Shown piece by piece: positions 56,310 to 61,363 of a stretch of 61,363 nt of DNA. Under the pieces are notes generated by a model. The model was not told the DNA's origin and did not search any database. It saw nothing but the letters and a program-made list of their open reading frames with translations. The stretch's first letter is position 1. The number at the start of each line of letters is the position of its first letter. Source of the DNA: an uncultured Prevotellaceae bacterium (GTDB lineage Bacteria > Bacteroidota > Bacteroidia > Bacteroidales > Bacteroidaceae); assembly GCA_946186505.1 (NCBI GenBank), contig CAMHNI010000016.1, positions 1 through 61,363 on the forward strand, in the 5' to 3' direction. Both the position numbers and the translations under genes were made by a program.

Positions 56310-56705
56310 ATGAAGTATTATCGAACAGAAAAACAAAGACTTTATTACGACAAAGTGATAGCGCTTTATCGTGACAAGCACATGGGAAGAAAGAGTATAG
56401 AGAAAATAATTCCCGTGTCAAATTGGACTATTTCAGAATGGATTCGTAACTTTGTAGCCGAAAACCCAAGTTACAAGAGTGCGCGTATGAAACAGGCAGA
56501 AGAAAGACGGAAGAAGAAGGCTGTATTAGAGTCTGTCGCTTCTCCCATGCCCAGTGACATGAATTCGCTGAAGGCAGAAGTGGCTCGTCTGCGTACGGCT
56601 CTTAAGGAGGAATCTATTCGTGCCGACCTCTACGATGAGATGATAAATGTTGCAGAGGAGCAGTTCAAGATTCCCATCCGAAAAAAAGCTGGCACCAAGC
56701 AGTGA
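56310..56705 (+). CDS. IS3-type transposase OrfA (HTH)
   Basis: A 131-residue protein with an HTH at residues about 20-50 (KVIALYRDKHMGRKSIEKII, NWTISEWI) and a leucine-zipper-like helix near 85-110 (NSLKAEVARLRTALKEESIR). It binds the element ends. Seven A residues at 56681-56687 (frame CGA AAA AAA G) form a -1 slippery site 15 bp before the stop. The -1 frame is open from there into orfB, so the active transposase is probably an OrfAB fusion, as in other IS3 members. Confidence 0.9.
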   Translation: MKYYRTEKQRLYYDKVIALYRDKHMGRKSIEKIIPVSNWTISEWIRNFVAENPSYKSARMKQAEERRKKKAVLESVASPMPSDMNSLKAEVARLRTALKEESIRADLYDEMINVAEEQFKIPIRKKAGTKQ

Positions 56706-57709
56706 CGAGTCTGCATGCACTGGACCCTCAGAAGTATACGATAGAGGGCCAGTGCAGACTGCTTGGTGTATCGAAGCAGGCTTATTTCAAGAGAGACGAG
56801 GATGCCTTGATGAGAAAGCTGGCCCAGGAGGAGTTCGCGCTGAACTACATCCTTGAAATCCGCAAGAAGGATCCAGGCCTTGGGGGCGAGAAACTGTGGA
56901 AGATGTACAAGCGCGACTTCACAGGCAACAAGCCAATGGGGCGTGACCGGTTTGAGGCGCTTGTAGACAGATATGGCCTGAAGGTCAGGAAGCGGGTGCG
57001 CAAGCCTCGCACGACAGACTCCACGCATGGTCTGCCGGTCTGCCCGAACCTCATCAAGGACTTCATCCCAACGGCTCCCAACCAGCTGTGGGTGAGCGAC
57101 ATTACCTATATCGAAATATGGCTGGACGCCACCCGCTACTGCTTCTGCTTCCTGTCCATGATACTGGATGCGTATACAGAGGAGATAGTCGGCTGGAGCG
57201 TAGGTCCGACCCTCGATACGGAATACCCGCTACGCTCCCTCGAGACGGCCCTGGAGCGTATCAAGGACATCCCCAAGGAGCAACGGACGCTTATACATCA
57301 TTCTGACCGCGGCGTGCAGTATGCCAGCAAACGCTATGTGGAGCTGCTGACGCAGCACGGCATCCGTATCAGCATGACCGAGGACGGGAACCCCAAGGAG
57401 AACCCGCAGGCCGAGCGCATCAACAACACGATGAAGAACGAACTGCTCAAGGACAAGCGCTTCAGGGCACTTGATGAGGTAATTGCAGCAATTACCATGG
57501 CCGTCAGATTCTACAACGAAGAGCGCATGCATATGAGTATCGACATGATGACACCAAGGGAGGCGGCCAACTGTACAGGCGAGCTGAGGAAACATTGGAG
57601 AAGCCTCAGACAGGAGCACATCAAGGCAAGGCGAGCCGAGACTCAGGCAGAAGAGGCGACGGTACCAATGCCGCAGCCTGCCGTTATCCCACTGGCCCAG
57701 AGTGTTTAA
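56702..57709 (+). CDS. IS3-type transposase OrfB (rve integrase core)
   Basis: A 335-residue DDE transposase domain, read from a GTG overlapping the orfA stop (GTGA) or, more likely, by -1 frameshift from orfA. An HTH_21-like part (LNYILEIRKKDPGLGGEKLW) precedes the catalytic core: D in QLWVSDITYIE near 131, D in LIHHSDRGVQYAS near 200, E in NPQAERINNTMKNEL near 236, matching DD(35)E spacing. The C-terminal tail is Ala/Glu/Pro rich. The catalytic triad is intact and no stops are present, so the copy may be active. Confidence 0.93.
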   Translation: MTSLHALDPQKYTIEGQCRLLGVSKQAYFKRDEDALMRKLAQEEFALNYILEIRKKDPGLGGEKLWKMYKRDFTGNKPMGRDRFEALVDRYGLKVRKRVRKPRTTDSTHGLPVCPNLIKDFIPTAPNQLWVSDITYIEIWLDATRYCFCFLSMILDAYTEEIVGWSVGPTLDTEYPLRSLETALERIKDIPKEQRTLIHHSDRGVQYASKRYVELLTQHGIRISMTEDGNPKENPQAERINNTMKNELLKDKRFRALDEVIAAITMAVRFYNEERMHMSIDMMTPREAANCTGELRKHWRSLRQEHIKARRAETQAEEATVPMPQPAVIPLAQSV

Positions 57710-58764: not shown

Positions 58765-60057
58765 TCATCCGTCATCCGCCATCGCACGCAGCCGCGACTT
58801 GATCTCCTCCGCCGTCCGCTGCACGACGATATAGCCGCGCGAGGTCTTCGTGCGCCTGAACTCGAACCCTAAGGTCGTGAAGGCACGGCCCAGGCGGACG
58901 GCATTGATCTGGTGAACCATATTCCCGCTGACTATCTGCATGGCACGGCTCACTGGCATGAACTCGCCACCCTCCACGCCGACGGGCGGACGGAAGTAGA
59001 CGTCGACCAGCTCCTCCTCCAGCCGCGGCGTCTCAAACTGGCGGTTGTGCACCGCCAGCCTGAGGATCTCCTCGCGCGAGAACCAGAAGCGGAAGCCCTC
59101 GCGGTAGAGCGCATACGCCTGGGCATAGACGCCCTCGTAGTCGAAGGGCACCTCGCGCGGCGAGGTAATGCTCTCCACCTCGAACGGCAGCCAGCGGCGG
59201 TTGCCCGTCGGGTCGCTGAGGAACTGCACGTTGTTGCCCGTGCCGCAGAACGAGGCGATGTGCTTGCGGTGCTCGTGGAAGTGGGCGTAGGCCGCCCGCT
59301 CGTCTATCGACGGCATCGTCACCGCCGCCTTCAGCTGGTTCAGCTCCGACGGTCGCATCGTGTCCAGCTCCTCGCAGCACACCAACCCGTACTGCGCCAA
59401 CGTCAGCAGGTCGTCGCGCCCCATCCTCTGGGCGTTCGTCTTCGTGTAGAAATACGTGCGAAGCTCAGGCGGCAGCAGGTAGTTGAACCACGTCGTCTTG
59501 TACGACCCCTGCTCGCCTATCAGCACCAGGATGACGTTGTTCACCACCGAGTCGTCCACCCAGCCCGCCACCATGCCCACCAGCCACTTCCTGAAGTACT
59601 CCGCAAACAGCAGCTGTTCCTCGACGCCGCCCCTGACGTTCACCGATACCGACATCGCCAGGATATGGTCCTCGCCGTTCCACGGAGGCAGGTGGTCCAG
59701 GTAGAAGCGGAACGGATGGAACTCAGGCACGAAGTCCGACTCTATGACGCGGTACATGTCCTGCACCCGCACCGTCTTCGTCGCCGACAGCTCCGCCCAC
59801 AGCGAATTGACGATGCGGTCGCTGATGGGCTGCCAGTTGTCTGTATCGGGGATGCGGAACTCCACTCGCCCCGTTATCACGTTGTGCCTGAGCAGCACCC
59901 GGTCCATCAGGAAGTTCTGGATGTCCTCCACCGTGGCATACACCTCCTGCCACGGCTTCTTATGCTCAGATTCCCCACCCCTCTTAGGGGCGGGGTGGCC
60001 TTTGGCCGGGGCGGGGTGCTTCTTCTCTGCATTTCCCTCTTTCTTCTTCATAGACAA
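58765..60057 (-). CDS. VapE/VirE-family P-loop ATPase, with a repeat-derived N-terminal insert
   Basis: A 430-residue protein of the virulence-associated E group. Walker A is IGEQGSYKTTWFNYL near residue 185, Walker B-like LVCCEELDTM, then FCGTGNNVQFLSDPTGNRRW and LPFEV, typical of the family, which resembles SF3-type replicative helicases of phages and islands. Residues about 11-30 (AEKKHPAPAKGHPAPKRGGE) come from the dispersed palindrome at 59971-60008. The last codons (DDG, stop) lie in an inverted repeat. The minus-strand promoter is at 60072-60103. With DUF4248 it marks a mobile-island remnant. Confidence 0.88.
   Translation of the reverse strand: MSMKKKEGNAEKKHPAPAKGHPAPKRGGESEHKKPWQEVYATVEDIQNFLMDRVLLRHNVITGRVEFRIPDTDNWQPISDRIVNSLWAELSATKTVRVQDMYRVIESDFVPEFHPFRFYLDHLPPWNGEDHILAMSVSVNVRGGVEEQLLFAEYFRKWLVGMVAGWVDDSVVNNVILVLIGEQGSYKTTWFNYLLPPELRTYFYTKTNAQRMGRDDLLTLAQYGLVCCEELDTMRPSELNQLKAAVTMPSIDERAAYAHFHEHRKHIASFCGTGNNVQFLSDPTGNRRWLPFEVESITSPREVPFDYEGVYAQAYALYREGFRFWFSREEILRLAVHNRQFETPRLEEELVDVYFRPPVGVEGGEFMPVSRAMQIVSGNMVHQINAVRLGRAFTTLGFEFRRTKTSRGYIVVQRTAEEIKSRLRAMADDG
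59971..60008. repeat. Dispersed G/C palindrome inside the VapE-like gene
   Basis: CCCCT/AGGGG core with GGGGCGGGGT tails. Its first 14 bp (TTCCCCACCCCTCT) are identical to the copy at 61209-61222. It is in frame, encoding part of HPAPAKGHPAPKRGG. Confidence 0.75.
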
Positions 60058-60168: not shown

Positions 60169-60200
60169 TTTGGCCTTTTAGTGATATTTTCGTATCTTTG
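60169..60200 (+). promoter_or_regulatory. Promoter of the 145-codon gene
   Basis: TTTG (60169-60172), 20-bp spacer, TATCTTTG (60193-60200). The ATG at 60209 begins 8 nt after the -7, leaving a leader of about 0-4 nt. Confidence 0.85.
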
Positions 60201-60208
60201 CATCCGAA

Positions 60209-60646
60209 ATGGCAAAACGAACATTAGAAGACTTTTACAAAGAAAGTAAGCGTATTAGAGAAGAAGTCCTGCAACAAGCGGAACTTCTGAAAGGGTGTCC
60301 TTTACGCTTTATTATCACCAATGAAATTACAATGCGGGTGGAGATTACCAAAACAGACCTAAAGACCATTGTAAGCAAGAACTTGGGCGATGACAAGTTT
60401 AATGCCATTAAGAATGCACTGGCGAAAGACATTCCTGGATATCTCGCAAAAGCCACCTACTTGGGATGGAGAACCGTTGCTGAAGGAAAGCATTTTGAAA
60501 GTGCCTACTTTGCCTATTTCAGTCGTGAGTTGGGTTGCCGCACCATCCTTTGTATGCGCCGAATGACAGATGGTGACATCTACAAACCATACGCCATTAT
60601 CAATGACCACACATTTGCTGAAGCAGAGAATGAACTAAGGGAATAA
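60209..60646 (+). CDS. Protein of unknown function (145 residues), nearly leaderless
   Basis: I do not recognise this family. The product is soluble, mixed alpha/beta, without a signal or membrane segment. The N-terminal helix is charged (KRTLEDFYKESKRIREEVLQ), followed by a strand pair CPLRFIITNEITMRVEITKT, a K-rich helical middle (LGDDKFNAIKNALAKDIPGY) and a C-terminal part with LGCRTILCMRRMTDGDIYKP. It has a perfect promoter of its own and almost no leader. It faces a convergent promoter driving a repeat-containing RNA that would stop at its 3' border. The setting, next to a VapE-type island, suits a defence or toxin-type accessory gene, but this is only a guess. Confidence 0.7.
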   Translation: MAKRTLEDFYKESKRIREEVLQQAELLKGCPLRFIITNEITMRVEITKTDLKTIVSKNLGDDKFNAIKNALAKDIPGYLAKATYLGWRTVAEGKHFESAYFAYFSRELGCRTILCMRRMTDGDIYKPYAIINDHTFAEAENELRE

Positions 60647-60791
60647 ATAACTCCGTCTTAACAAGTCGCTTGCCGATACAAACGGGGCTCTTGCCTTAGA
60701 CGGAGCTTGGAGAGTGTACACATTAGCAAGTCGCTTGCCGATACAAACGGGGCTCTTGCCCTATGGTTACACTTTGTCTCTATTCACTTTG
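60645..60791 (-). ncRNA. Candidate structured RNA with two 34-nt double-hairpin repeats
   Basis: A minus-strand transcript from a consensus promoter (60798-60829) would carry two identical 34-nt repeats (60727-60760 and 60662-60695) separated by 31 nt. Each repeat folds into GGC-AAGA-GCC and CAAG-CGA-CTTG hairpins; copy 1 extends these to GGGC/GCCC and GCAAG/CTTGC. The second repeat is enclosed by CTCCGTCT/AGACGGAG (60698-60705 with 60651-60658), followed by TTATTTATT, a possible terminator. No coding potential of note. The same hairpins could form in the 3' UTR of the facing gene, but the promoter favours the minus strand. Confidence 0.55.
60662..60760. repeat. Two identical 34-bp direct repeats
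   Basis: CAAGTCGCTTGCCGATACAA followed by ACGGGGCTCTTGCC, at 60662-60695 and 60727-60760, with a 31-bp spacer. Two copies only, and no cas gene nearby. Confidence 0.9.
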
Positions 60792-60797
60792 ATGATG

Positions 60798-60829
60798 CAA
60801 AGATAAGTATAAATTCCGGAAAAACCAAA
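60798..60829 (-). promoter_or_regulatory. Promoter of the candidate repeat RNA
   Basis: Minus-strand TTTG (60826-60829), 20-bp spacer, TATCTTTG (60798-60805). No coding region lies downstream in this direction before the end of the convergent gene. Confidence 0.8.
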
Positions 60830-60851: not shown

Positions 60852-61363
60852 TCACAACTCATTTTCCTCTAAAATCTCACGGAATCGCCGGGCTATGGTC
60901 ACCATACGGTCGAATGGTCTGCGCGTCTTTGAGGTCTGCATATCGAAAGCCCATTCATCAAAAGGCCTTACGAAATCCGTTTGACTAATCTGCTTCACCG
61001 AGTCCTTCTTATATGGCTTGTTCACCTCCTCGGGCATCACCCGCCGGATGAAGGTGTCGAAGCCGTCGAAGTCGGAGTCGCGGCAGTAGCCCTTGTCCAC
61101 CAGAATGCGGTACACCGCCTGCCAGTGACTTTGCTGGCAGAACAGCGGCCCGTCGCCCAGTCGCTCTACCATCAACAACGTAATACACCGTCGCATCCGC
61201 TCCTCTTGTTCCCCACCCCTCTGAGGGTCGGGGTTAGGGGCGGGGTAAGCCTCCGGCTCCAACACAATCTGGATTCTGACACCAAGGTTCTTCGGGCCTG
61301 GTGCAGCTGCTCAAGCAGACGGTTGATGAATCCGAGGGCATCCTCGTTGTTATCGAAATTCAT
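60852..61363 (-). pseudogene. Frameshifted hypothetical gene at the window edge
   Basis: Translation from the ATG at the right edge gives MNFDNNEDALGFINRLLEQL, then HQA, and soon runs into repeat-derived sequence and a stop. The -1 frame continues naturally from NLGVRIQIVLEPEA through CITLLMVERLGDGPLFCQQS to RRFREILEENEL. Restoring one base in the GCCCG tract near 61294-61298 would join them into about 165 residues. The middle holds a repeat-coded YPAPNPDPQRGG. The C-terminal part is a soluble, helical domain I cannot name. It sits upstream of the VapE island on the same strand. A sequencing error is possible. Confidence 0.55.
61209..61250. repeat. Dispersed G/C palindrome inside the right-edge gene
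   Basis: TTCCCCACCCCTCT...AGGGGCGGGGT, closely related to the copy at 59971-60008. It encodes AYPAPNPDPQRGGE in the continuing frame. Confidence 0.7.

Follow-up and report, generated by a model that had tools for sequence, protein, structure and literature searches.

A conserved two-hairpin RNA convergent with the gene of a predicted BECR-fold ribonuclease in Prevotella-type bacteria: a candidate RNA antitoxin

The window analyzed here is the whole of a 61,363-nucleotide stretch of DNA from an uncultured Prevotellaceae bacterium (assembly GCA_946186505.1, contig CAMHNI010000016.1). Near its right end, a predicted repeat-built RNA encoded on the minus strand is convergent with a plus-strand gene for a protein that we call p145, and the end of the open reading frame meets the tail of the RNA (Table 1). 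An initial annotation, made from the sequence letters, had proposed a structured RNA with its own promoter and no reading frame of note. The interval itself is indeed free of one, but the conserved 145-residue plus-strand frame ends at its edge (60646). The minus-strand promoter is exactly as it was described, with TTTG (60826-60829) separated by 20 nucleotides from TATCTTTG (60798-60805), and it fits the Bacteroides consensus of TTTG at -33 and TAnnTTTG at -7 (PMC7366714). The two identical 34-nucleotide repeats are the common core of two 41-nucleotide copies, 95% alike, at 60658-60698 and 60723-60763, with a start-to-start distance of 65 nucleotides. An 8-bp stem reported there (AGACGGAG/CUCCGUCU) is present and is extended by flanking pairs to 10 bp (60649-60658 with 60698-60707); the U-rich tail (UUAUUUAUU) comes after it, and at other loci the U runs are longer than in the window. 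No terminator was called at the RNA end by a simple scan, the 8-base loop limit of which excludes this hairpin. The element is present once in the genome of the window, a second, weak match covering 41 bases of the query, at its 5' end. Rfam 15 covariance models gave no match at gathering threshold in the window, the only one near the RNA being snoU30 at an E value of 3.5 on the plus strand, and a search for tRNA and tmRNA found none.

Table 1. Features of the RNA and of its partner gene, in positions of the window
Feature	Position	Strand	Basis and remarks
p145, 145 residues, predicted BECR-like ribonuclease toxin with weak similarity to Pfam LPD3	60209..60646	+	Open reading frame, models, relatives
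p145 promoter motif, TTTG-N20-TATCTTTG	60169..60200	+	Read in sequence; 8 bases before ATG
RNA promoter motif, TTTG-N20-TATCTTTG	60798..60829	-	Read in sequence; found across RNA segments
Predicted antitoxin RNA	60637..60793	-	Ends inferred from promoter box and U-rich tail
Unit 1 hairpin	60714..60772	-	Contains core copy 60723-60763; repeats, fold, covariation
Unit 2 hairpin	60649..60707	-	Contains core copy 60658-60698 and a covarying outer stem; repeats, fold, covariation
U-rich tail	60637..60648	-	Read in sequence; overlaps p145 stop codon (60644-60646)

The promoter motif, scored as 9 or 10 of its 10 letters, was found upstream of 36 of the 46 homologous RNA segments, where shuffles would give 2.0, and its spacing to the RNA is near-constant. 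In L002, one of the 10 segments without it, a motif can be seen by eye farther upstream. The number of repeats, in which the initial annotation had proposed to look for variation, hardly varies: 40 of the 46 segments have two units, 62 to 67 nucleotides apart in 39 of them and 51 in L012, and the six single-unit segments adjoin missing, partial, or broken gene copies. The minus strand of the window folds at -49.8 kcal/mol (z -3.64), more stable than all of 200 shuffles; the plus strand gives z -2.11, with 7 of 200 shuffles equally stable. Covariation was scored over 32 nested pairs in an alignment (A3) of 36 of the 40 two-unit RNAs, leaving out the shortened RNAs of L012 and L065, those of L008 and L050 with a shortened unit 1, and the outer stem of unit 1, which is not alignable between clades. 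Within this alignment 92.8% of the cells pair, and 15 of the 32 pairs show change on both sides, in 113 cells. The covariation score of 0.293 compares with 0.173 after shuffling (reached in none of 500 shuffles) and with at most 0.142 when the structure is slid along the alignment, although the scored structure was drawn from the A3 sequences themselves, which favors it over the slid versions. The middle stem occurs as CAAG/CUUG, UAAG/CUUA, UGAG/CUCA, and UGGG/CCCA, and the apical stem as CCG/CGG, CCAG/CUGG, and CCGG/CCGG. G-U cells outnumber A-C cells (65 to 3, or 27 to 3 once the two most G-U-rich pairs are left out), which marks the minus strand as the one under selection.

The compensatory changes that were to be looked for across Prevotella belong to a two-unit fold and not to the small hairpins first drawn, GGC-AAGA-GCC and CAAG-CGA-CUUG, in which none of 14 pairs is compensatory and pairing (74.3%) equals that of shuffled columns (74.4%). 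In the supported fold, unlike in that earlier small hairpin, the pairing of CAAG with CUUG spans the entire unit. A covariance model matches the window at 60645-60780 with 139.9 bits, the window being among the sequences from which the model was built. Covariation and strand bias strongly support the earlier reading of a structured tandem-repeat RNA with a promoter motif of its own, but the hairpins were drawn otherwise and the partner gene was missed.

The association of this RNA with p145 is close. A tblastn search found p145, or a piece of it, convergent with the RNA in 15 of the 18 loci L001 to L018. In all, 53 distinct copies of p145 were collected, 34 of which a script called intact; L094, whose 96-residue protein has lost an internal segment, was reassigned to the broken copies, and L065 was counted as intact despite an altered C terminus. 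Next to each of the 33 intact copies lies a convergent RNA (30 of two units and 3 of a one-unit kind, here type B), and those first fetched by the RNA search were all recovered by a protein-led search as well. The RNA is kept beside 16 of the 20 broken or partial copies; in the four without it (L044, L051, L097, and L101), the end of the gene on the RNA side is always missing, and two of the four break off close to a contig edge. RNA presence differs between intact and broken copies at a Fisher P value of 0.017. Among 200 genomes of the genus, the protein was found in 23, the two-unit RNA in 23, and both in 18, against 2.6 expected. Of the five genomes with only the protein, four carry type B RNA (G006, G007, G066, and G155), and the fifth, G073, has no more than a fragment. 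The RNA is present without the protein in five genomes; in one of these, L014, a 22-residue remnant of p145 is left, and in another, L007, the RNA is complete. The persistence of the RNA beside broken p145 genes is as expected of an antidote, and so is the complete two-unit orphan RNA at L007 (1501-1636), a locus of 3.1 kb in which no p145 was found. The tight link to one protein family speaks against a main role as a sponge or trans-acting regulator. The flanking genes p137 (60852-61265, minus strand) and vapE (58765-60057, minus strand) were rejected as partners, being present only in L001 and L018 of L001 to L018, with different flanks elsewhere. Degraded single-unit RNAs are near genes that by eye resemble an MNT/HEPN pair in L011 (1836-2484) and a HigBA-like pair in L014 (508-1177), as if they lay in hotspots of toxin-antitoxin genes.

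The type B RNA is likewise convergent and is built from a small hairpin at the 5' end, a single unit, and a long run of U. It lies beside p145 copies that are about 54 to 59% identical to that of the window (L046, L048, and L056), beside a further relative (L099), and beside the p145 fragments of L053 and L057. Two type B sequences were folded, giving z values of -4.48 and -4.08; the promoter motif scores 9 or 10 in four of six, and in the outer stem L099 differs from the rest on both sides. A further correspondence between RNA and protein concerns the internal loop of unit 2: in 30 of 30 loci, which of its two types is present agrees with the protein clade and with protein residue 105 (S/N or D), a match that fits cognate pairs. 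The loop type changes once on the protein tree (28 rows) and twice on the RNA tree, the latter because the RNAs of L055 and L075 are chimeric, with a unit 1 from another lineage joined to the unit 2 and the protein of their own clade. The apical loops are identical between the two units in 25 of 30.

The protein partner has a pI (isoelectric point) of 8.4 and 871 relatives in the database searched, and it is under purifying selection, with dN/dS (ratio of nonsynonymous to synonymous substitution rates) of 0.05 to 0.11 in the 5 of 10 pairs that could be computed. The window protein resembles Pfam LPD3 (PF18798) at 19.7 bits and an E value of 0.001, below the curated cutoff of 27. This weak match recurs in 20 of 21 p145 members at E values of up to 1 (best 1.2e-5), and precomputed annotation places an LPD3 domain in 5 of 137 relatives listed. 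Beyond LPD3 there was no match in Pfam, and none in PADLOC, NCBIfam, or the PDB sequences; Abi_2 is absent among the Pfam matches of the 21 members at the same limit, and the best PHROGs match, at an E value of 0.077, is of unknown function. The AlphaFold model is globular and of high confidence. In structure comparisons of two AlphaFold models, BECR-fold ribonuclease toxins (colicin D, HigB, and RelE) rank first, and a Foldseek search of the p145 model against the PDB gave nothing at an E value of 0.001 or below. ToxN-type structures are not among the structure-comparison matches listed, which excludes nothing. The invariant residues H95, R106, R117, K126, and Y128 lie outside helices 6-26 and 62-73. 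From the models, p145 is predicted to be a BECR-fold ribonuclease toxin. A promoter-like box lies within 30 nucleotides of the p145 start codon in 29 of 32 loci under a relaxed pattern, a count from which L099 is absent, as it was missing from the stored list. The -7 box in the window (60193-60209 region) stands 8 bases from the ATG, which predicts a nearly leaderless mRNA; at several other loci the gap is 2 to 8.

The cassette of p145 and RNA moves, as a comparison of loci indicates. In the window it is flanked by p137 and vapE, as it is in L018 (on the same contig as L074), in L076, and, judged by eye, in L090; L136 lacks the cassette, and its matches to p137 and vapE are 143 bases apart. 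Ten chosen flanking open reading frames comprised a FokI-like enzyme, an EcoRI-type methylase, an AbiEii-like ATPase, one transposase, four housekeeping genes, and two without a match. Many of the carriers, which are Prevotella-type bacteria, come from ruminant guts: 14 of 39 named loci have a ruminant in the title, and 19 more are "RUG" genomes, which we take to be from rumen. A sequence search that hit 98 of the 200 genus genomes returned mostly short chance matches to the query ends, and the count of 23 of 200 is the model-based one. At the family level 3 of 251 genomes were found, and at the phylum level 1 of 296, the window's own. The 34-nucleotide core had no match in viral contigs, the RNA region none in phages, and no p145 was confirmed in viral contigs; a plasmid match to the RNA region, 37 bases inside a Cetobacterium AraC gene, was taken as chance. 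Elsewhere in the window, a GC-rich near-palindrome, CCCCACCCCTCT.AGGG..GGGGT, occurs at 59973-59996 (vapE) and 61211-61234 (p137 region), where none is expected in shuffles, and seems to lie within coding sequence. Two overlapping open reading frames at 56310-57709 resemble, on inspection by eye, a transposase pair of the IS3 type.

Our best explanation, which we hold with slightly better than even confidence, is that the conserved two-hairpin minus-strand RNA, at about 60637-60793 and with its own promoter motif, binds and silences p145 as the antitoxin of a BECR-fold ribonuclease toxin. The more specific proposal of a new architecture, in which an RNA decoy with two sites, transcribed separately from the strand opposite the gene, would hold a colicin-D/RelE-like ribonuclease, is put forward more tentatively, at somewhat less than an even chance. 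Since the RNA is encoded on the opposite strand under its own promoter, there would be two opposed transcription units, the 3' ends of which meet. Both promoters would be active; p145 would cleave RNA, its substrate perhaps being tRNA or ribosome-bound mRNA, like those of known BECR toxins; and the RNA would bind and silence it, possibly with one binding site per hairpin unit and hence two toxin molecules per transcript. Should the supply of RNA stop, when a phage takes over or the cassette is lost, the toxin would be released. Several observations weigh against this explanation. The Z scores of the BECR structure matches are modest, at most 5.4; the usual active-site histidine is absent, the window protein having none in either helix 6-26 or helix 62-73; further standard pair types in the RNA are no more numerous than in shuffles (30 versus 30.7); and the loop match to residue 105 amounts to one event under close linkage.

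The same modest fold match and missing histidine would suit another kind of RNA-protein machine, in which p145 binds or processes RNA and the RNA is its cofactor, its activator, or its guide, perhaps in defense. An RNA partner that is obligate for intact p145 would agree with this, as would the 3 of 10 chosen flanking frames that are restriction-modification or Abi-like, but RNAs persist beside broken p145 genes, a complete one stands as an orphan in L007, and BECR-type toxins top both structure comparisons, so that we consider it unlikely. We give a similarly low probability to a type I-like antisense RNA that pairs with the p145 mRNA toward its 3' end and lowers expression; that mRNA may run through the RNA gene, and the hairpins would then provide stability and first contact. 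The convergent layout with meeting 3' ends is that of the type I pair Fst/RNAII (PMC8167048), and a simple scan of the plus strand shows no terminator-like site for p145. However, antisense pairing over the full overlap would need neither compensatory changes nor conserved loops, and p145, with 145 residues and a high-confidence globular model, is no small hydrophobic peptide. Pairing with the 5' part of that mRNA is not beyond shuffles in eight of nine loci and is borderline in the window (4 of 100 shuffles as strong), and it was discarded as the main mode of action. Least probable, and in our view very much so, is an element acting at the level of DNA or of the p145 mRNA, with the hairpins as a 3' terminator or stabilizer or as single-stranded DNA sites of mobility. 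The plus strand folds too (z as given above), and the p137-vapE site is found filled or empty, as a mobile cassette would leave it, but the bias of G-U over A-C marks a minus-strand RNA, and the promoter motif keeps its near-constant spacing upstream of it.

With the antitoxin explanation preferred, known systems can be compared. Fst/RNAII shares the meeting 3' ends (PMC8167048), but Fst is a small membrane peptide controlled by antisense pairing, and p145 does not fit type I, in which an antisense RNA represses a small hydrophobic toxin. The AbiF RNA of Clostridioides difficile (RCd22) has two structured motifs, as here, of 33 and 35 nucleotides, uncleaved between and tightly bound by the toxic protein (PMC12373285); unlike here, it precedes its gene, and the protein belongs to the Abi_2 family, to which p145 has no match. 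AvcID (PMC10511110) is likewise an RNA antitoxin of a non-ToxN toxin and is called type III, although that toxin is a deoxycytidylate deaminase. The BECR-fold ribonuclease toxins colicin D, HigB, and RelE resemble the p145 models in structure, but in the structures listed they are checked by protein antitoxins or immunity proteins. Phage LPD3 domains share the weak sequence match of p145 members, and LPD3 is described as a domain of large polyvalent proteins. Searches of the open-access literature yielded no paper on such an RNA-p145 module, the motifs of PMC8040213 (structured RNAs of the human microbiome) not having been compared. Nor was an RNA antitoxin for a BECR-fold toxin found described there. 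Few toxin folds are known to have RNA antitoxins that bind the protein, and BECR is among the most widespread folds of ribonuclease toxins. In the descriptions of such antitoxins that were consulted, the RNA precedes the toxin gene. If our explanation is true, RNA antitoxins would extend to the BECR fold, a stand-alone LPD3-like domain would gain a first lead to its function, and searches that require repeats upstream of a toxin would miss systems. The module is compact, its protein has many relatives, and it is directly testable in laboratory strains.

The closest known kind is the type III antitoxin. As in ToxIN, CptIN, TenpIN, and AbiQ, a small predicted ribonuclease is found beside a repeat-built structured RNA; a tandem-repeat RNA adjoins the protein gene, three intact genes having a one-unit RNA; and the repeat core of 34 to 41 nucleotides is in the size range of ToxIN-type antitoxins, 34 to 36. 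Described type III loci have one promoter, with the antitoxin RNA first, on the same strand, and a terminator between (PMC8167048 and PMC5086642), whereas here the RNA is on the opposite strand, convergent, and behind its own promoter motif, rather than in a shared operon. Type III antitoxins fold as pseudoknots; the structure scored here, over nested pairs only, has two nested hairpin units. In addition, p145 has no sequence match to ToxN-type families in Pfam, PADLOC, NCBIfam, or the PDB sequences. Because of the two facing promoters and the convergent layout, we do not file the module as a member of the described type III systems; it is likely an RNA-protein module of toxin-antitoxin-like kind, type III in its mode of action.
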